This document shows positions 8,239 to 53,403 of a DNA stretch of 64,000 bases, piece by piece. Positions within the stretch are counted from its first letter, which is position 1. The number at the start of each line of letters is the position of its first letter. Source of the DNA: Odoribacter sp. (GTDB taxonomy: Bacteria; Bacteroidota; Bacteroidia; Bacteroidales; Muribaculaceae); contig JAMPHZ010000001.1 of the NCBI GenBank assembly GCA_023663145.1, positions 1 to 64,000 of the forward strand, written 5' to 3'. The position numbers were made by a program, and so were the translations under genes. The notes beneath the pieces are model-generated. The model ran no database searches. It saw only the letters and a list, made by a program, of their open reading frames with translations, and was not told the origin of the DNA.

Positions 8239-11199
8239 TTATAGCAGACTCTTGTAAACCTGTGAGAACAAACCTGGGCGCAGGTTGGCCTTGTTGAAAG
8301 CTTCGTTATCGCGTGTGGGATTGACGCGATTGGTGAGAAAAATGAAGATGAGTTCTTGTCCGGGATCAACCCAGAACACTGTGCCTGTGAAGCCCAGATG
8401 ACCGTATACGGCTTCAGACGCCTCCTCACAAGTAGGTGAGTTGTCAGGATTGGCAGTGTCAGGTTTGTCAAAGCCGAGACCGCGGCGACACGTCTGACTC
8501 TTGGCAGTTGTGAATAGCTTTACAGTCTCTGGTGATAAAATGCGGGCATCGCCATAAACGCCTCCGTTAAGCCACATCTGACATAATTTGGCCAGATCGG
8601 TAGCCGAAGCGAATACTCCGGCATTTCCCGAAACTCCACCGAGCATGGCGGCGGTTTCATCATGTACGTATCCATGCACGAGTTGCTTGCGCAGGAAAGT
8701 GTCATTCTCGGTAGGAGCGATCTGTGAGAGTGGTAAATGAAGGGTAGGGCGGTAACATGCTGTATAAGCTCCGATGGGGGCCCATATGCTGTCTGTGACC
8801 CATTGGTCATGTCGTTGCTTGGTGATGCGCTGTTCCATATCCATGAGCAGGCAGAAGTTCAGGCAGGAGTAGGCATACTCCTTATTCTTGCGGCGTGGAA
8901 TGTTGTATATTCGCGACATGATGGTATCATAAGCCGCCGATCCTACCCATATTCCATGGGCTGCTTCAACCGGATATTCCTCTGACCGTGAAGATGCGAC
9001 TATATCAGAGCGTAGTCGTGCCCCATTGTATCCCCATGCGCCGTTCTGTATCTTTATGGCATGGTTGGAATCACGTCGGGGTGTGATCAGTCTTCCTGTG
9101 TAGGAGGCGGTATCAATCATGGTGTTGAACATGTTGAGCGATGGTGGCATACCCGACTCGTGGTATAGGAGCTGTCTTACGGTTATGTCTTCTTTGCCTG
9201 CCGAGGCCAGGGCGGGTATGTAGCGTGCAGCCGGTACGTCAAGGTCAAAAAGGCCAAGGTCATAGGCTTTCATTACGCCGGGCAGTGTGCCGGTGGCCTT
9301 CGATACTGAGGCAAGGTCATAGACTGTAAAATGTGTCACTGCATCGCCGCCGGATGTCAGGTTCCCATAACATTTATCGATCACAATATTGCCGTTGCGC
9401 GCTACCAATACCTGGCATCCCGGAATAGCACCGGTGGCAAGTGCGTTGCCGACAATCGAATCAATTGAGTCGGTGAGCGATGGCCGCATATTCTCGCCAA
9501 GCGGTGAGGAGAAACCAAGACGAACCTTTGGAATGCGTACTCCGGTACCAATCTTGGCTGTAGGAAGCAAGTTGACAGGAAGCATGCCGCTTACCTCGTT
9601 GCCTCCGAATACAGCCTGGGCTGCGGCACTGCGCATCTGAGGTAAGTTGTCATAGCACAGCAGCAGGGCATCAGTTTCTTTTAGTCCACTTTGGAATTTG
9701 GCCATTTTGTAGGGATGCATCAAGAATACGCCTACAAGTGATTTCGCACCTGAAAGTTGACCGAATGCGGCGCGGGCTGCTGCATCGTTGTTGTATACAG
9801 CGGCAATCACCACGTCATGGGCAAGGATTTCTTTTAGTGTGGATTGGGAAATATTGCCAAGGGTCGCGTATTCGTCAACAGCGGCGTAGCGGCGAGCGGT
9901 GGCATTGAAATTATCGTCACCGGGAGTCCCTATTGTAACGATGGCTATGGAGCGTTTGTCAAGCTGACCCAGAGGGAGGGTGGATTCGTTGTTCCAGAGT
10001 GCTGTTATGGATTTTTGGCATAGCTCATTGATGAGAGCCTGACATTCAGGGGAGTTTATACGGTTCATAAGACCGTTGATGTCAAGCCTTTTTTCAAACG
10101 GTAATCCGAGAATGTATTTATATTTAAGAATACGTTTGCAGCGATCCTCTATAATCTGACGTGATATTTCTCCACTCTGTACCATGTTGTATATCAGGTT
10201 GATGTCGCTTATCGGGTCTTTCGATGACAGCAGTACATCAGCCCCGGCCCTAAGCGCTTCGACAGCGGCGTTGAGTCCTTCGATCTGAGCGCCTTTCATC
10301 CCTAAGGCATCGGTATAGATAAGGCCCTCGAATCCCATCTCTCCTCGCAGCAGATCAGTGGTCATTTTATGAGATAATGAAGCCGGTCGGCCGGATGGAT
10401 CAAGAGCCGGCACCACAATATGTCCCATCATGATACCTGAGAGGCCTGCACCTATGTACCGCTCAAAAGGAACAAGATCTATGGCCTTGAGTGTGGCGAG
10501 ATCGTGTGTGACGGTAGTAATGTCCTTGTGTGAATCGGTTTCAGTGTCACCGTGACCAGGAAAATGCTTGGCGCATGATTGTACGCCGGCGTCTTCAAGT
10601 CCGCGGGAGAATGCCACACCAAGTGCTGCTACGCGCATGGGATCTTCTCCGAATGAGCGGTAACCTATGACCGGATTACGTGGATTTGAGTTAACATCCA
10701 TCACTGGTGCGAAGTTAACATGTTCACCCACAAGACGGCATTGGCGTCCCATCTCAAGCCCGTAGCGGTACATAAGAGATGTGTCATTGGTGGCTCCGAG
10801 AGCCATGTTGCAAGGATATTTAGGTGTGCCGTTTATGCGCATCGCAAGTCCCCATTCACCGTCGAAAGTCATCAGCAAGGGTACTTTCGCAAGGCTTTGG
10901 GCAACGTTTGTCATCTCAATGTATTGTTCAAGAGTGCCGGCGGTGAATAATAGTCCACCGATGTCGTTTTTATCAACGTAGCGTTTTATAGCGGCCATTG
11001 TGCCAGGACCTTGCGCCGGCATAGTCTTGGGAAAGATAAGTTGTGCCACACGCTGGCGTTCTGTGAGAGAGTTGTATACCGAGTCGACCCATCGGTCGCA
11101 GGCTGCCCGGTCAACACTGTTTTCAAGGTAAGGGGTCACTGCCTGGGCGGCCATTGTGGCCATAGTGGCAATAGCTGAAAGAATTAGTCGTCTAAGCAT
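8239..11199 (-). CDS. Glycoside hydrolase family 3 (NagZ-like) / serine beta-lactamase-like fusion
   Basis: A 986-residue exported two-domain enzyme. After a signal peptide (1-20), residues about 35-370 are a GH3 beta-N-acetylhexosaminidase. They carry the NagZ loop KHFPGHGDT-x2-DSH (211-224) and the nucleophile Asp297 in YTDALGM. Residues about 565-986 are a class C beta-lactamase/penicillin-binding-like serine hydrolase: S631-V-S-K634, Y777-S-C-L-N781 and H934-LGFTGT. The linker (400-560) resembles the GH3 C-terminal domain. NagZ removes GlcNAc from muropeptides, and the second domain probably acts on peptides or esters, so a role in peptidoglycan turnover fits. It lies 72 bp after the 5'-nucleotidase gene. 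This fusion is a known architecture in Bacteroidetes, as far as I recall. Confidence 0.9.
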   Translation of the reverse strand: MLRRLILSAIATMATMAAQAVTPYLENSVDRAACDRWVDSVYNSLTERQRVAQLIFPKTMPAQGPGTMAAIKRYVDKNDIGGLLFTAGTLEQYIEMTNVAQSLAKVPLLMTFDGEWGLAMRINGTPKYPCNMALGATNDTSLMYRYGLEMGRQCRLVGEHVNFAPVMDVNSNPRNPVIGYRSFGEDPMRVAALGVAFSRGLEDAGVQSCAKHFPGHGDTETDSHKDITTVTHDLATLKAIDLVPFERYIGAGLSGIMMGHIVVPALDPSGRPASLSHKMTTDLLRGEMGFEGLIYTDALGMKGAQIEGLNAAVEALRAGADVLLSSKDPISDINLIYNMVQSGEISRQIIEDRCKRILKYKYILGLPFEKRLDINGLMNRINSPECQALINELCQKSITALWNNESTLPLGQLDKRSIAIVTIGTPGDDNFNATARRYAAVDEYATLGNISQSTLKEILAHDVVIAAVYNNDAAARAAFGQLSGAKSLVGVFLMHPYKMAKFQSGLKETDALLLCYDNLPQMRSAAAQAVFGGNEVSGMLPVNLLPTAKIGTGVRIPKVRLGFSSPLGENMRPSLTDSIDSIVGNALATGAIPGCQVLVARNGNIVIDKCYGNLTSGGDAVTHFTVYDLASVSKATGTLPGVMKAYDLGLFDLDVPAARYIPALASAGKEDITVRQLLYHESGMPPSLNMFNTMIDTASYTGRLITPRRDSNHAIKIQNGAWGYNGARLRSDIVASSRSEEYPVEAAHGIWVGSAAYDTIMSRIYNIPRRKNKEYAYSCLNFCLLMDMEQRITKQRHDQWVTDSIWAPIGAYTACYRPTLHLPLSQIAPTENDTFLRKQLVHGYVHDETAAMLGGVSGNAGVFASATDLAKLCQMWLNGGVYGDARILSPETVKLFTTAKSQTCRRGLGFDKPDTANPDNSPTCEEASEAVYGHLGFTGTVFWVDPGQELIFIFLTNRVNPTRDNEAFNKANLRPGLFSQVYKSLL

Positions 11200-20712: not shown

Positions 20713-20787
20713 GATTGGAAATGTTTATACGACAGGCAAATTTAGTCATATAATCATTTCATGGCATGATTTTTGGGTTAAAATATG

Positions 20788-22188
20788 TTAATAGTTGTGA
20801 ATCCACTTTTTTGACGTCATCCTCCACAGAAATATCAGACCTCTGAAGCTTAATTCAATTGCCATGGCTATCCACACACCACGTAGTCCCATTGAGGAGG
20901 CCATGATGGCTGCAAGTGGTATTCTCACAGCCCATATGCTGCCGAAATTCATTATTGCAGGGATTAAGGTGTCCCCGACACCTACAAATGCACCATAGGC
21001 TACGATAGAGGCTGCATATAACGGTTCTGCCCATGCCTCTATGCGCAGCACTTCGGTCCCCAGCTGTCGTATTGAATCTACATTGGTCATGAGATCCATC
21101 ATCCATGGCGCCGACAGGTATAATATCACGCCCATTACGGTCATTACAGCTATTCCAAGACCTACGGTCAGGTGGGCGAAGCGTATCATAAGATCCTTAC
21201 GTCTGGCTCCATAACATTGGCCGGTAAGAGTGGTGGCTGCGTCACCAATACCAAAGCCGGGCATGTAGCACAGGCTTTCGGCAGTAACAGCGAATGCATT
21301 TGCCGCAATGGCAATTGTGCCGAGTGGTGCCACGATGACTGTAATCATAATTTGCGCGCCGCAGAATACTGCGTGTTCGAGTGTCATCGGTGCAGCTATT
21401 TTACAAGCTCGCTTAAGCACACGGCGGGTAGGGCGGAAGCTGCCGGGCTCCCGGCCATGCAGTTTCATCTCAGGTTGTCGCCATATTAGATAATACATCA
21501 TCAGGCCGGCCGTGAATACTTCGGCCGCTACAGTTCCCAATGCCGCTCCCAATACTCCCAGCCCGGCTCCTGGAACGGAAATGGATATTGTTCCGAGCAT
21601 GATGTCGCGGGTAGGAAATATGAGAAAGAAGTTGAATACAACATCCATCAGGCACATGGCTATGTTAAGCATGGCCGGTATCTTCATGTTACCGGCTGAT
21701 CGCAACGTGCCTCCGGCAAGATAGTTCATCGTCAGCAGTGGCAAAGCCGAGGCAAATACCATGAAATACACTGAAGCATTGTGGCATATGGCCTCATCAC
21801 CGCCAAGCCATTCAGGCAGGAACGGTCCTATTGCTATTCCTGTCAGGGCCGCAATGGCGCTGAACACCAGACAGGCCGTGATGCCTTGGCGCAATACATC
21901 GCGCGCCTCGGAGGCGGAGTTGGCTCCGAGACGGTGGGCTACTTGTACCGAGAAACCTGTTGTGACAGCTGAACATATTCCCCAAAATAGCCATAGGGAA
22001 CTGCTCATGAGACCTACCGAGGCGGCACCGTCAAGGCCGAGACGCCCCACCATCGAGGCATCTATATATTGCATGATGATGCTCGACAATTGGGCCAGTA
22101 TGGCAGGAATGGCAAGCTGTGTTGTGAGACTGATTTGCTGCCGCAGAGTCATGGGTGCCCCGTTCCTGATAGGTGACATGTCAGCCAT
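20788..22188 (-). CDS. MATE-family multidrug/cation exporter
   Basis: A 466-residue inner-membrane protein with about 12 hydrophobic helices in two similar halves, the MATE fold. The N-terminus (LAIPAILAQLSSIIMQYIDASMVGRLG) is typical of the family. MATE proteins export cationic drugs or metabolites in exchange for sodium or protons. It is the third gene of a tight series after the SurA-like and OstA-like genes (12-bp and 6-bp gaps), so it is probably co-transcribed with outer-membrane biogenesis genes. Its substrate may be linked to the envelope; this is inference from position. Confidence 0.88.
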   Translation of the reverse strand: MADMSPIRNGAPMTLRQQISLTTQLAIPAILAQLSSIIMQYIDASMVGRLGLDGAASVGLMSSSLWLFWGICSAVTTGFSVQVAHRLGANSASEARDVLRQGITACLVFSAIAALTGIAIGPFLPEWLGGDEAICHNASVYFMVFASALPLLTMNYLAGGTLRSAGNMKIPAMLNIAMCLMDVVFNFFLIFPTRDIMLGTISISVPGAGLGVLGAALGTVAAEVFTAGLMMYYLIWRQPEMKLHGREPGSFRPTRRVLKRACKIAAPMTLEHAVFCGAQIMITVIVAPLGTIAIAANAFAVTAESLCYMPGFGIGDAATTLTGQCYGARRKDLMIRFAHLTVGLGIAVMTVMGVILYLSAPWMMDLMTNVDSIRQLGTEVLRIEAWAEPLYAASIVAYGAFVGVGDTLIPAIMNFGSIWAVRIPLAAIMASSMGLRGVWIAMAIELSFRGLIFLWRMTSKKWIHNY

Positions 22189-31086: not shown

Positions 31087-32250
31087 TTATTTGAAATTGT
31101 CGGAGTACTCGGCGATGGCCTCGAACATGCGCTTGTGTGCCTCGGTAAGATCGCAGCCGCGGCGTGCCATCACACGTTGTGCTATGGCGAAGAATTCGCC
31201 AAGGTGCACGTTGTCGAATCCGGCTGTGCCTCCCTTTGTGAAGGAGGGTATGAATACGCGTGGCATTCCCTCACTTATGATATTGCACCCCACACCCACG
31301 GTGGTCGCGGTGTTGAACGATGTGTTGATGGCGCTTTTTGAGTGATCACCCATTATCAGCCCGCAGAATTGCAACCCTGTGCGCAGGAAACGCCCGGCAG
31401 CATAATTCCAAAGCTTGATTTCCGAATAGTCATTCTTCAGATTCGATGCTATTGTTCCACCACCCAGATTGCACCATTGTCCTATCACAGCATTGCCCAG
31501 AAAGCCGTCGTGCGCTTTGTTGGAGTATCCTTGCATCACTACATTGTTGATTTCGCCGCCGACCTTGCAGTATGGTCCTAAAGTTGTGGCACCGTACATG
31601 ATACATCCCATATTTAACTGTGAATGGTCAAGCAGCGCTATGGGGCCTCGCAGGTGGCATCCTTCCATTACAGTAGCGCCTTTGCCAATGTAAATTGGTC
31701 CCCGGCGTGTGTTGAGGGTGGTGCATTCTACCGTGGCTCCTTCTTCTATAAAAATGAGTGACGGGTCTCCGAGCACCGTGTTTGACGGGTCGATGGCACA
31801 CGAGGTGCGCCCTGCTGTGGCTATTTCATAATCTTGCTTTATCAGTTTGTCATTTAATGTGAATATATCGTATACATGGTCAATTGCGATTAACTCGCCG
31901 TTATATTCCACTGCGGTATTATCTCCGTTGCCGCGGCGAGCTATCTCCCGGTTTCCGCATGTGAGTTTTTCACCGGGCCGCAATGCTTTTACGGCTTGTG
32001 CAAGATGTGGTGTGGCCACTATGTTGCCCGCAATGTGCAAGACGTTGTCATTTGACGTATCGGCCGGAGCGGCGGCATATAGCTCGTTCAGGTAACTTAT
32101 TGTGTCGTGATAATATTTGCCAGGCATTAATATCTGCCAGCGACGGGTATTGGTGAACAAGCCTGTCAATATCTCGGCCGCCGGTCTGGTGTAGGTTATA
32201 GGCAGTAATTCGCGCCGTATATCTTCGTTGTCGTGAAGTATTATAGTCAT
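31087..32250 (-). CDS. GlmU-like sugar nucleotidyltransferase-family protein with left-handed beta-helix
   Basis: A 387-residue protein. The N-terminal half (about 1-160) resembles the NTP_transf_4 family. It opens MTIILHDNEDIRRELLPITYTRPAAEI and lacks the GxGTRM nucleotide loop of true sugar-1-phosphate nucleotidyltransferases. The C-terminal half is a hexapeptide left-handed beta-helix (IYIGKGATVMEGCHLRGPIAL, then GNAVIGQWCNLGGGTIASNLK), the fold of GlmU acetyltransferase. It is often annotated as glucose-1-phosphate thymidylyltransferase in Bacteroidetes, but the substrate is uncertain. It is alone between two promoters. Confidence 0.75.
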   Translation of the reverse strand: MTIILHDNEDIRRELLPITYTRPAAEILTGLFTNTRRWQILMPGKYYHDTISYLNELYAAAPADTSNDNVLHIAGNIVATPHLAQAVKALRPGEKLTCGNREIARRGNGDNTAVEYNGELIAIDHVYDIFTLNDKLIKQDYEIATAGRTSCAIDPSNTVLGDPSLIFIEEGATVECTTLNTRRGPIYIGKGATVMEGCHLRGPIALLDHSQLNMGCIMYGATTLGPYCKVGGEINNVVMQGYSNKAHDGFLGNAVIGQWCNLGGGTIASNLKNDYSEIKLWNYAAGRFLRTGLQFCGLIMGDHSKSAINTSFNTATTVGVGCNIISEGMPRVFIPSFTKGGTAGFDNVHLGEFFAIAQRVMARRGCDLTEAHKRMFEAIAEYSDNFK

Positions 32251-32276
32251 ATCTTAGCCGTTTTTCGTTTTGTTCG

Positions 32277-32284
32277 CAAAGTTA
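32277..32284 (-). promoter_or_regulatory. Putative -7 element of GlmU-like gene
   Basis: TAACTTTG on the minus strand, 27 bp upstream of the ATG at 32250. The -33 region is weak. Confidence 0.45.
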
Positions 32285-32519
32285 CTATATTTTTTAGAAT
32301 TTTGATAACTTACATGTATGGGATCTGCGGAAGCAAAGTGCGCGGTTTCCTGATGTTTTTTACGAAATTTGAAATTTACACATTTGAAATTGCTGTCAAT
32401 TTGCAATTATAAAGTCGTGTGAAGGCTGGTTGTGCGATATTATTACTTGCAATATGACAAAATGATATTGAATTAACGTATTTTAACATCAAAAATATTT
32501 TCATGTCTTAAAAATGCTA
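32285..32519. other. A/T-rich spacer with no recognised gene
   Basis: Part of the 550-bp gap between the GlmU-like gene and ung. It has no open frame with coding character on either strand and no hairpin of note. It may hold regulatory sites for the two divergent units. Confidence 0.5.
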
Positions 32520-32527
32520 TAACTTTG
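32520..32527 (+). promoter_or_regulatory. Putative -7 element of candidate small RNA
   Basis: TAACTTTG followed by CAG matches TAnnTTTG. The -33 region about 20 bp upstream is T-rich (TATTTTC) but lacks a full TTTG. No coding frame follows, and a terminator lies 122 bp downstream. Confidence 0.5.
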
Positions 32528-32533
32528 CAGCGT

Positions 32534-32681
32534 TAGGTAGTTTTTTCTATTCCAATAGCTGTCGTTTCATGTAGTAAAAAAGTTGTTTCAGCCCGCCAGA
32601 TTTTAGCTCCCCTGTAGGGGGGCTGAAATGAGGGCTCAAAGGAATCAGAAACCGTGACCCGCTGAGGGCCGCGGTTTTTTA
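32534..32681 (+). ncRNA. Candidate structured small RNA of about 150 nt (identity unknown)
   Basis: A non-coding unit between a -7 box and an intrinsic terminator. By hand folding, the 5' segment TTTCTATTCC (32544-32553) pairs with GGAATcAGAAA (32641-32651) with one bulged C. AGCT (32557-32560) can pair with GGCT (32633-32636). A strong apical hairpin joins TTTCAGCCC (32586-32594) to GGGCTGAAA (32620-32628), with a CCCC/GGGG stem inside. This rod with a large asymmetric inner loop is reminiscent of 6S RNA, but I cannot assign a family. The transcription start is estimated from the -7 box. The closing stem and the terminator stem share three bases, so they may compete. Confidence 0.5.
32649..32681 (+). 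terminator. Intrinsic terminator of the candidate small RNA
   Basis: Stem AAACCGTG (32649-32656) with CGCGGTTT (32670-32677), an inner CCC/GGG stem (32658-32660 with 32666-32668) and a five-base loop, then a run of T ending at 32680. It is a strong rho-independent form. Confidence 0.8.
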
Positions 32682-32743
32682 CGCTGCTCACAGCGCTCAC
32701 ATCTGCCGGATAAGGCCCAGCTACAACGTGTCTTCCACGCGTA

Positions 32744-32775
32744 TTTGGCGTTTAAATTAGTTTTGCGTATCTTTG
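32744..32775 (+). promoter_or_regulatory. Consensus promoter of ung operon
   Basis: TTTG (32744-32747), a 20-bp spacer and TATCTTTG (32768-32775), then CA. The leader before the ATG at 32801 would be about 20 bases. Confidence 0.75.
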
Positions 32776-32800
32776 CAAGTGTTTTCACTTTTATAGAATT

Positions 32801-33466
32801 ATGTACGTTAGAATTGAGCCTTCCTGGCAAAAAATAATGACCGGTGAGTTCTCCGCACCATATTTTGAAAGCCTTGCGGCCTTTATACGCGAAGCCTATG
32901 CTGCCGGTCCTGTTTATCCGCCTGCCGGAAAAATTTTTGCCGCTTTTGATGCTTGCCCGTTTGACAAGGTCAAGGTCGTGATTCTCGGACAGGACCCTTA
33001 TCATGAACCGGGGCAGGCCAATGGTCTTGCTTTTTCTGTCTATGATGGAACTCCGTTGCCACCATCGTTGGTAAATATTTTCAAAGAAGTGGAGAGTGAT
33101 ACAGGCATCACTCCATTGCCATCGGGAGATCTGCGCCGGTGGAGTAACCAAGGTGTCATGTTGCTTAATTCCACTCTTACTGTCAGTGGTGGACAGGCAG
33201 GATCACATCAAGGTAAAGGCTGGGAAGAGTTTACTGACTCGGTCATAAATCATCTCTCATCGCAGCGCTCAGGACTCGTTTTCATGCTTTGGGGCAATTA
33301 TGCCCGCCGCAAGGGAGCTTCGATCGATCGTACACGTCATCTTGTCCTTGAGTCTCCTCACCCATCGCCTCTGTCTGCTCACCGTGGATTCTTCGGGAAC
33401 CATCATTTCTCATTAGCCAATGATTATCTTGTAAAGCAAGGGCTTTCTCCAATTGACTGGAAATGA
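32801..33466 (+). CDS. ung: Uracil-DNA glycosylase
   Basis: A 221-residue family 1 uracil-DNA glycosylase that removes uracil from DNA to start base-excision repair. The catalytic motif GQDPYHEPGQANGLAFSV contains Asp65 and His68. The second motif HPSPLSAHRGFFG, with the catalytic His, lies near residue 187. Length is normal. It heads an operon with the DUF5103 and DUF3109 genes; its stop overlaps the next ATG (ATGA). Confidence 0.96.
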   Translation: MYVRIEPSWQKIMTGEFSAPYFESLAAFIREAYAAGPVYPPAGKIFAAFDACPFDKVKVVILGQDPYHEPGQANGLAFSVYDGTPLPPSLVNIFKEVESDTGITPLPSGDLRRWSNQGVMLLNSTLTVSGGQAGSHQGKGWEEFTDSVINHLSSQRSGLVFMLWGNYARRKGASIDRTRHLVLESPHPSPLSAHRGFFGNHHFSLANDYLVKQGLSPIDWK

Positions 33467-34719
33467 TTCGCGGTATTATAGTTACTGTCATATGTGCGGT
33501 TGCCGGCGCAGCTTCGGCCCGCGACACTATGGACTGCATATTTAACGATCGTGTCAAGACTGTGCGCGTGGCATTGTCAGGTGACGATTATTTCGCGCCG
33601 CCGGTCGTTACGTTGGGCTCCGGCGACTTCCTCAATATAAGCTTTGACCATTTGAGTGAAGACCGTGAATTCTTGAGATTCAGAGCCGTGAGATGCGATG
33701 CCAATTGGCAGCCTTCATCTATCCCTGAATCGCAATGGCTTGATGGATTCAATGAAAGTGTCATTGACAACTATGAATTCTCACGGGCTACCACAGTGCA
33801 CTATGTACACTATGATTTTAACTTCCCGAATGATGATATATCTCCAGCCTTATCGGGGAACTACCTTATTGAAGTTTATCCGGAAGACGACCCGTCGCAG
33901 GTTTGGTTCGCCCGGAGGGTTATGATTTCCGAACAGTCGGCACCTGTTGTGGCGTCAGTTTCATCGCAGACTGATGTCGACTATAACAAGGCTCATCAAC
34001 AGCTTTCTGTGGCAGTGGACACCGAGCGGGCATCTGTCTCCGACCCATTTAATGACCTCACGGTCATGATCTCGCAGAACGGTCGTGCCGATAATGAAGT
34101 GGCCCTTAGACAACCGTTGCGTATCAGTGGCAGGACGGCGGTTTACGAACATCGTGATCCGCTTATCTTTGAAGCCGGCAACGAATATCGACGCATTGAG
34201 ATTGTAGATGTGAATTATCCCGGAATGGGAGTTGAGGAAATAGCGTATGCTTATCCTTATTACCATTTTCGTCTTTCCACCGACTTACCCCGCATATCAC
34301 AACCTTATATTTACGACAGCACCCAGCATGGCCGTTTCTTTGTAAGGGAATACAACTCTGATAATTCTGATGTGGAGGCCGATTATGCCGTGGTGCATTT
34401 CTCTCTTGAAACGGAGGAAATGCCCGGAACAATGATTTTCATTGATGGAGATTTTACTTCGCGCCGTTTCGACGATAATTCGATAATGGGATACAATGAT
34501 GCCACAGGACGTTACGAAAAAGTGCTGTTGCTCAAGCAAGGAGCCTATAATTACCAATATCTGGCAGTTCCCCCTGGGGCGCGGCGTGGTTATACATCGG
34601 TAATTGAAGGCGATAAGTATCCTACATCTAACGAATATCTGATAAAAGTATATACCCGCGGGCCTCTTGACCGCACCGATCGTCTGATTGGCGTAACTCT
34701 TATTAATTCACTGCCGTGA
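33463..34719 (+). CDS. DUF5103 (type IX secretion plug-like) exported protein
   Basis: A 418-residue exported protein. Residues 1-20 form a signal peptide (IVTVICAVAGAASA). The mature protein opens VRVALSGDDYFAPPVVTLGSGDFLNISFDHL, typical of DUF5103. Members include the plug protein that seals the SprA translocon of the type IX secretion system in flavobacteria, as I recall. Homologues also occur in Bacteroidetes without obvious type IX secretion, so the role here is open. It overlaps ung by 4 bp, and its stop overlaps a GTG at the head of the DUF3109 frame. The C-terminus (SNEYLIKVYTRGP) is normal for the family. Confidence 0.8.
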   Translation: MIRGIIVTVICAVAGAASARDTMDCIFNDRVKTVRVALSGDDYFAPPVVTLGSGDFLNISFDHLSEDREFLRFRAVRCDANWQPSSIPESQWLDGFNESVIDNYEFSRATTVHYVHYDFNFPNDDISPALSGNYLIEVYPEDDPSQVWFARRVMISEQSAPVVASVSSQTDVDYNKAHQQLSVAVDTERASVSDPFNDLTVMISQNGRADNEVALRQPLRISGRTAVYEHRDPLIFEAGNEYRRIEIVDVNYPGMGVEEIAYAYPYYHFRLSTDLPRISQPYIYDSTQHGRFFVREYNSDNSDVEADYAVVHFSLETEEMPGTMIFIDGDFTSRRFDDNSIMGYNDATGRYEKVLLLKQGAYNYQYLAVPPGARRGYTSVIEGDKYPTSNEYLIKVYTRGPLDRTDRLIGVTLINSLP

Positions 34720-53331: not shown

Positions 53332-53403
53332 TATGCCCGTAGGGAGTCGAACCCTAATCGTCGGAACCGGAATCCGAAATTCTATCCATTGAACTACGGG
53401 CAC
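53332..53403 (-). tRNA. tRNA-Arg (anticodon CCG)
   Basis: A 72-base cloverleaf on the minus strand. The acceptor stem is GTGCCCG/CGGGCAT with a G1-U72 wobble pair and discriminator A73. The D-arm is GTTC/GAAT. The anticodon stem is TCGGA/TCCGA with loop TTCCGGT, giving anticodon CCG (reads CGG). The T-arm is TAGGG/CCCTA with loop TTCGACT. The 3' CCA is not encoded. It has its own consensus promoter at 53420-53451 and a terminator at 53281. Confidence 0.93.

Follow-up and report, generated by a model that had tools for sequence, protein, structure and literature searches.

What does the 550-bp spacer between a glmU-type gene and ung encode? The window, meaning the whole 64-kb stretch of DNA that was analysed, contains this spacer between two annotated genes, and the initial annotation placed a small structured RNA there with its own promoter and terminator, its apparent rod shape recalling 6S RNA. 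The evidence assembled below supports the first part of this proposal and points away from the second. The candidate, here called S, is almost certainly an RNA gene, as judged from its sequence features and homologues, and part of it is antisense to another small RNA of the same genome, X. The locus raises a further question, namely whether S acts on X. The features concerned are as follows.

31087-32250, minus strand: alt_bact_glmU-type gene (TIGR03991, 371 bits)
32251-32800: spacer of 550 bp between the alt_bact_glmU-type gene and ung
32473-32487, plus strand: TTAAC-N5-TTAAC direct repeat upstream of the S promoter, similarly placed at all 8 S loci
32520-32528, plus strand: -7 promoter box of S, TAACTTTGC; its 8-mer TAACTTTG (32520-32527) fits TAnnTTTG
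32531-32681, plus strand: small RNA gene S, predicted transcript of about 150 nt (from the fold, the match to model R1 and homologues in seven other genomes of the genus)
32532-32551, plus strand: invariant 5' block of S, GTTAGGTAGTTTTTTCTATT
32550-32591, plus strand: segment of S antisense to the conserved 5' part of X (from alignment to reverse-complemented X)
32590-32636, plus strand: S hairpin, with outer stem 32590-32594/32632-32636 and apical stem 32600-32629 (13 bp), in both the MFE and the centroid structure
32647-32680, plus strand: intrinsic terminator hairpin of S with U run (from folding)
32768-32775: separate ung promoter box, TATCTTTG
32801-33466, plus strand: ung, uracil-DNA glycosylase
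33463-34719, downstream of ung: type IX secretion system plug protein gene (NF052315, 366 bits)

The gap between the glmU-like gene and ung does hold the -7 box, apical hairpin, terminator and separate ung promoter that had been attributed to it. TAnnTTTG is the -7 consensus of Bacteroidota, and the box reads TA[A/C]CTTTGC across the eight S loci; transcription is predicted to start at about 32531-32533. From the -7 box, the layout continues through about 60 weakly structured nucleotides to a strong hairpin and then the terminator. The fold is more stable than that of shuffled sequence, both for S itself (32531-32681, z = -3.35) and for the region 32520-32690 (z = -5.16), with 0 of 200 shuffles as stable in each case. 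A simple consensus terminator scan of 32251-32820 returned no hits, and the stem of the S terminator has mismatches; because the scan is blank there, assignment of the terminator relies on folding and on the U run. Sequence model R1 recovers S in its own genome with an E value of 1.2e-19.

The repeat upstream of the S promoter recurs in this genome (G000), where TTAAC-N5-TTAAC occurs at 22 sites compared with 6 for the reversed control pattern. A TAnnTTTG box follows 32-33 nt after the repeat at 8 of the 22 sites, including one at a tRNA-Ser gene. An interpretation of the repeat as a phosphate-type box was dropped, as it precedes the tRNA-Ser gene, a GreA-like ORF (named by eye) and another sRNA-like unit. 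The repeat and the -7 box together have the look of a promoter element in general use in this genome, and S seems to be driven by a strong promoter of this general type. Several other sites carry the same arrangement. One further repeat lies within the window at 20777-20791 on the minus strand. From G000:C10:55388 onward (L185, about 1501-1650), the repeat is followed by a -7 box TAACTTTGC, about 85 A-rich nucleotides and a terminator-like hairpin with a T run, forming an unannotated sRNA-like unit that has no match in Rfam. At three promoters, L192 (G000:C22:119890), L193 (C23:18313) and L200 (C38:95966), runs of about nine G residues separate the repeat from the -7 box; these G tracts could vary in length and so switch the promoters on and off.

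The distribution of S is narrow. Its 5' 20-mer (GTTAGGTAGTTTTTTCTATT) occurs exactly in 7 of 49 genomes of the genus, with no copies carrying one or two mismatches in the remaining 42, and R1 detects an eighth copy in G070 that is shortened and has a shorter T tract (E = 4.2e-11). S is present in 8 of the 49, and the 20-mer is identical in seven of these eight. BLASTN matches S in 9 of 61 genomes at E <= 0.01, five of them strong (E <= 1.7e-12) besides the own genome. In a wider search with R1, 55 of 397 genomes score at E <= 0.05; only 8 reach E <= 1e-10, all within the genus. The 20-mer is also found in six contigs of the GTDB collection and in none of the viral contigs.

S adjoins the glmU-type gene in four of the eight genomes (G000, G034, G032 and G017), lies about 2 kb from such a gene in G064, and is on a different contig from it in G014, G070 and G026. 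Because S stands beside glmU in only four of eight and elsewhere in the rest, action through a fixed neighbour is not indicated. In a tree of 30 GlmU-type proteins, taken from 30 of the 43 genomes having one, the S genomes make up 8 of the 9 members of a single clade with support of 100/100. The ninth member, G072, is 83% complete, and neither S nor X was detected in it; since G072 branches inside the clade, the presence of S needs two changes on this tree.

Comparative folding in relatives, suggested in the initial annotation as a check, reveals compensatory differences in the S hairpin. A hairpin follows the A-rich stretch in all seven S homologues that were folded individually, G026 being omitted because its 3' half differs. 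Next to the AG/CU pairs, the corresponding pair is U-G in G000, G034 and G064, C-G in G014 and G032, and U-A in G017; the G070 stem differs and was left out of this comparison. Similarly, the outer stem is AGCCC/GGGCU in G000, UCCAAGC/GCUUGGA in G017 and UCUGCC/GGCAGA in G014. These pairs were read by eye from separate folds, as a single alignment of the homologues is too gappy for column counts. The compensatory differences support a real hairpin. In G017 and G032, S ends with this hairpin, itself a perfect terminator, and the RNA is accordingly about 100 nt long; the other folded homologues carry a second hairpin, and their ends are other terminator-like hairpins. With the promoter box and 5' block kept in the eight related genomes and the hairpin in the seven folded, the proposed small structured RNA, complete with promoter and terminator, is supported.

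The rod is a different matter. It had been attributed to complementary 5' and 3' segments, which exist as GCAGCGT (32527-32533) and ACGCTGC (32681-32687). The helix they form begins within the -7 box, ahead of the likely transcription start, and is not conserved in other S loci, so the closed rod is probably not part of the S RNA. A 6S-like RNA that binds RNA polymerase would suit a free-standing transcript of about 150 nt with a strong promoter, and the rod and internal loop noted by an earlier reader. Yet the same genome carries a Bacteroidales-1 match at G000:C22:4061-4246 (123.3 bits), and Bacteroidales-1 (RF01693) is the 6S candidate of Bacteroidales. That RNA resembles S in being free-standing, structured and of similar length, and differs from it in locus and sequence. 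At gathering thresholds, the sole Rfam match in the whole window is a tRNA (53332-53403), with none at the S locus, and a search of the spacer at E <= 10 returned snoRNA, microRNA, CRISPR-repeat and IMES-2 models, none of which came near its threshold. Moreover, the short G017 and G032 homologues have just one strong hairpin. The 6S identity and the closed rod were dropped on the Rfam result, the C22 locus and the non-conserved helix, and the analysis makes a 6S RNA at this locus very unlikely indeed. A conserved DNA element or an overlooked small reading frame in place of an RNA draws on the fact that the S transcript is predicted from sequence. This alternative is highly improbable given that promoter box, body and terminator come in the right order, that the hairpin shows compensatory changes, and that homologues differ in length and carry indels; in addition, the spacer contains no plus-strand ORF of at least 40 aa, consistent with the body having been described as non-coding.

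The partner RNA emerged from low-scoring R1 hits elsewhere in the genus, which lie on the opposite strand of a separate small-RNA gene, X. The recurrent weak hits were read locus by locus (17 loci, then 16, partly the same) and correspond to antisense X, and most weak R1 hits outside the S clade were judged to be chance. In the own genome, X is located as follows.

G000:C40:280-403, minus strand: X gene (locus L092)

X comprises a -7 box, AAACCUAAAACAAUCUUUUUUACCUUAGAAAUUGUACCUAUUGGAAACCC and then a terminator hairpin with a variable stem, with a predicted length of about 95 nt. Its 5' part is near-invariant across the genus: a 37-nt core is present with at most three mismatches in 43 of 49 genomes and is exact in 40. 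R2, a model of X, matches 310 of 397 genomes of the family, representing 29 of 30 genera, at E <= 0.01. In an order-wide sample, 31 of 247 genomes match at E <= 0.001, 27 of them outside the family, in 14 other families. Those diverged relatives that were examined carry UAACCUAAAACAAUCUUUUUUACCUUAAAA or a sequence near it, and most X relatives examined have an upstream palindrome like AACATATT-N-TAAAACATAT (ATGT-N6-ACAT-like); the X promoter is probably palindromic and regulated. X sits after an lpxH-like gene in its own genus (L103) and in two other families (L140 and L147), and has different neighbours in the other genomes looked at. Ten X loci contain no Rfam RNA family at gathering threshold, save a tRNA near one of them. 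An extra A in the 5' part of X (CCTAAAAAC vs CCTAAAAC) distinguishes 7 of 8 S genomes from the others examined (0 of 43); the list comprised 52 loci, one of which (L118) gave no match. X is apparently an old and undescribed small RNA of Bacteroidales, and by analogy its layout, a conserved and weakly structured 5' part followed by a terminator, would be that of a seed-type mRNA regulator.

Several lines of evidence connect the two RNAs. The 37-nt X core is present without mismatch in all eight S genomes, and in each of them about residues 20-60 of S are antisense to X. When the first 75 nt of S were aligned locally with reverse-complemented X, the scores were 36 (G000), 37 (G034), 35 (G064), 30 (G014), 35 (G032), 42 (G017), 25 (G026) and 26 (G070), which were reached by 0, 0, 0, 6, 1, 0, 10 and 12 of 2000 dinucleotide shuffles, respectively. 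Same-strand controls scored 12-17, compared with 25-42 for the antisense orientation. When the 64-kb window was scanned for antisense X at 8524 positions, S was the best match (36) and the runner-up outside S scored 32. This runner-up maps to about 32321-32425 on the minus strand, upstream of the promoter box that serves the glmU-type gene, and was discounted as a target.

The homologues retain different antisense stretches. For example, G026 keeps AATTTCTAAG and GATTGTT, which are lost in most others. Such patchy retention would follow from an origin of S as a complete inverted copy of X. With the X of G004 as reference, chosen because of its ATAGAAAA variant, the alignment spans S residues 9-61 and takes in the terminator arm of X; none of 1000 shuffles is as good in seven of the eight genomes, and 15 of 1000 are in G070. 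By itself, the 5' 20-mer shows weak antisense to X, a match equalled by 70 of 2000 shuffles. The conservation of this part of S, the highest in the RNA, must therefore have some other cause: the invariant block may fix the transcription start, bind a protein or act as a second seed.

The predicted duplex of S with its own X has 28-38 bp in all eight genomes (31 bp in the own genome). For the six genomes computed, cofolding of the full-length RNAs gave binding energies from -14.8 to -20.0 kcal/mol, with z between -2.8 and -4.5. RNAduplex energies, obtained with a stand-in X for G026 and G070, fall below the shuffled mean in 8 of 8 genomes (z -2.1 to -5.3) and are weakest in G026 (33 of 1000 shuffles); complementarity to X is itself weakest in G026 and G070. 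Compared with GC-richer sequence of the window, the duplex energy does not stand out, with 563 of 7510 windows giving a duplex of equal or greater stability; being GC-biased, this measure was set aside as a test of pairing. As X barely varies, there is no compensatory change between S and X to look for.

The antisense relation very probably goes beyond chance, to judge from these alignments. It was found post hoc, when R1 picked up X loci at low significance (E 0.02-0.8 in single genomes), and both RNAs are AT-rich. These E values and the ordinary duplex energy are what might be expected if S were real and its likeness to antisense X a coincidence between RNAs with U and A tracts. Coincidence is nevertheless improbable, given that shuffles and window positions seldom or never attain the observed score, that the G000 match is over 40 nt long, and that homologues keep different parts of the match. 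A further alternative is that S is an ordinary mRNA-targeting sRNA with its invariant 5' end, GUUAGGUAGUUUUUUCUAUU, as the seed, the antisense segment being a relic or a mimic of the mRNA targets of X. The 20-mer is indeed the most conserved part of S, and FopS and GibS of Bacteroides thetaiotaomicron use conserved, unstructured 5' seeds near start codons, as described in PMC11697453 and PMC7366714. Searches for targets of the block point the other way. G000 has no second site with at least 14 of 16 matches to the block complement, although real seeds can be shorter; the other S genomes have 0-4 sites each with one or two mismatches, and over the eight genomes the reversed control pattern gave 41 matches vs 16 for the block complement. 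Since complementarity to X is also kept in 8 of 8 genomes, a role of S confined to mRNA seeding appears rather unlikely.

The preferred reading, which is modestly favoured, is that S acts today as a trans-encoded antagonist, or sponge, of X. A fuller reading, to which we assign a probability of roughly 0.4, is that this sponge derives from an inverted duplication of X, which would have acquired a strong promoter and a terminator in one Muribaculaceae clade. S would pair with X over about 30-40 nt and would occupy X residues of about 12-51, the conserved part presumed to bind mRNA. The analysis demonstrates the anatomy of the gene, its conservation across the clade, the antisense relation and the joint occurrence of S and X. 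We infer that S is transcribed and that the S-X duplex forms in the cell, where S would titrate or destabilise X, the presumed sense of the regulation. S would probably have arisen once, as an inverted X copy that then gained its promoter and terminator. Shared descent by inversion would also account for the similarity of S and X without present pairing.

Sponges or anti-sRNAs such as SroC and AgvB are known from enterobacteria. Like them, S has long complementarity to another sRNA of the same cell, with titration as the expected outcome, and the partner X is present wherever S is. In contrast to them, S resembles its own partner copied in inverted orientation and equipped with a separate promoter, and its sponge role is a prediction. 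An own promoter, a non-coding body, an intrinsic terminator and conservation in relatives likewise place S with intergenic trans-acting sRNAs. Sponges as a class are mentioned in PMC7366714. PMC7366714 and PMC11697453 describe GibS and FopS of B. thetaiotaomicron as binding translation start regions with their 5' part. A single-stranded conserved 5' part and a Rho-independent terminator are shared with these RNAs by X above all and by the G017 and G032 forms of S, and the sigma-ABfr-type promoter described for FopS (PMC11697453) is a further likeness. S differs from FopS and GibS in being single copy rather than multicopy and in carrying antisense to another sRNA. The structure of FopS is stated in PMC11697453 to be deposited in Rfam; neither S nor X matches Rfam at gathering thresholds, a result that would bear on FopS if its model is part of release 15. 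MasB of B. thetaiotaomicron, as described in PMC10994844, is a free-standing RNA of about 100 nt activated by the transcription factor Cur. Compared by that description, it resembles X in size and in being free-standing, and activation by Cur may be set beside the palindrome upstream of X; unlike X, it is described there as narrowly conserved.

In the literature searched, outside supplementary files, there is no description of S or X, and the search returned no sponge in Bacteroidota and no sRNA study of Muribaculaceae. RNA-on-RNA regulation is little known in Bacteroidota, a dominant gut phylum. If the fuller reading is true, S and X would be the first case of sRNA-on-sRNA control described in this phylum, as far as the literature searched shows, and X would be an undescribed core regulator of Bacteroidales. 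Should S antagonise X, the pair would provide a clear and testable case of the birth of a sponge by inverted copying of its target, and would mark X, at about 95 nt and near-invariant through the family, as a core regulator worth study.
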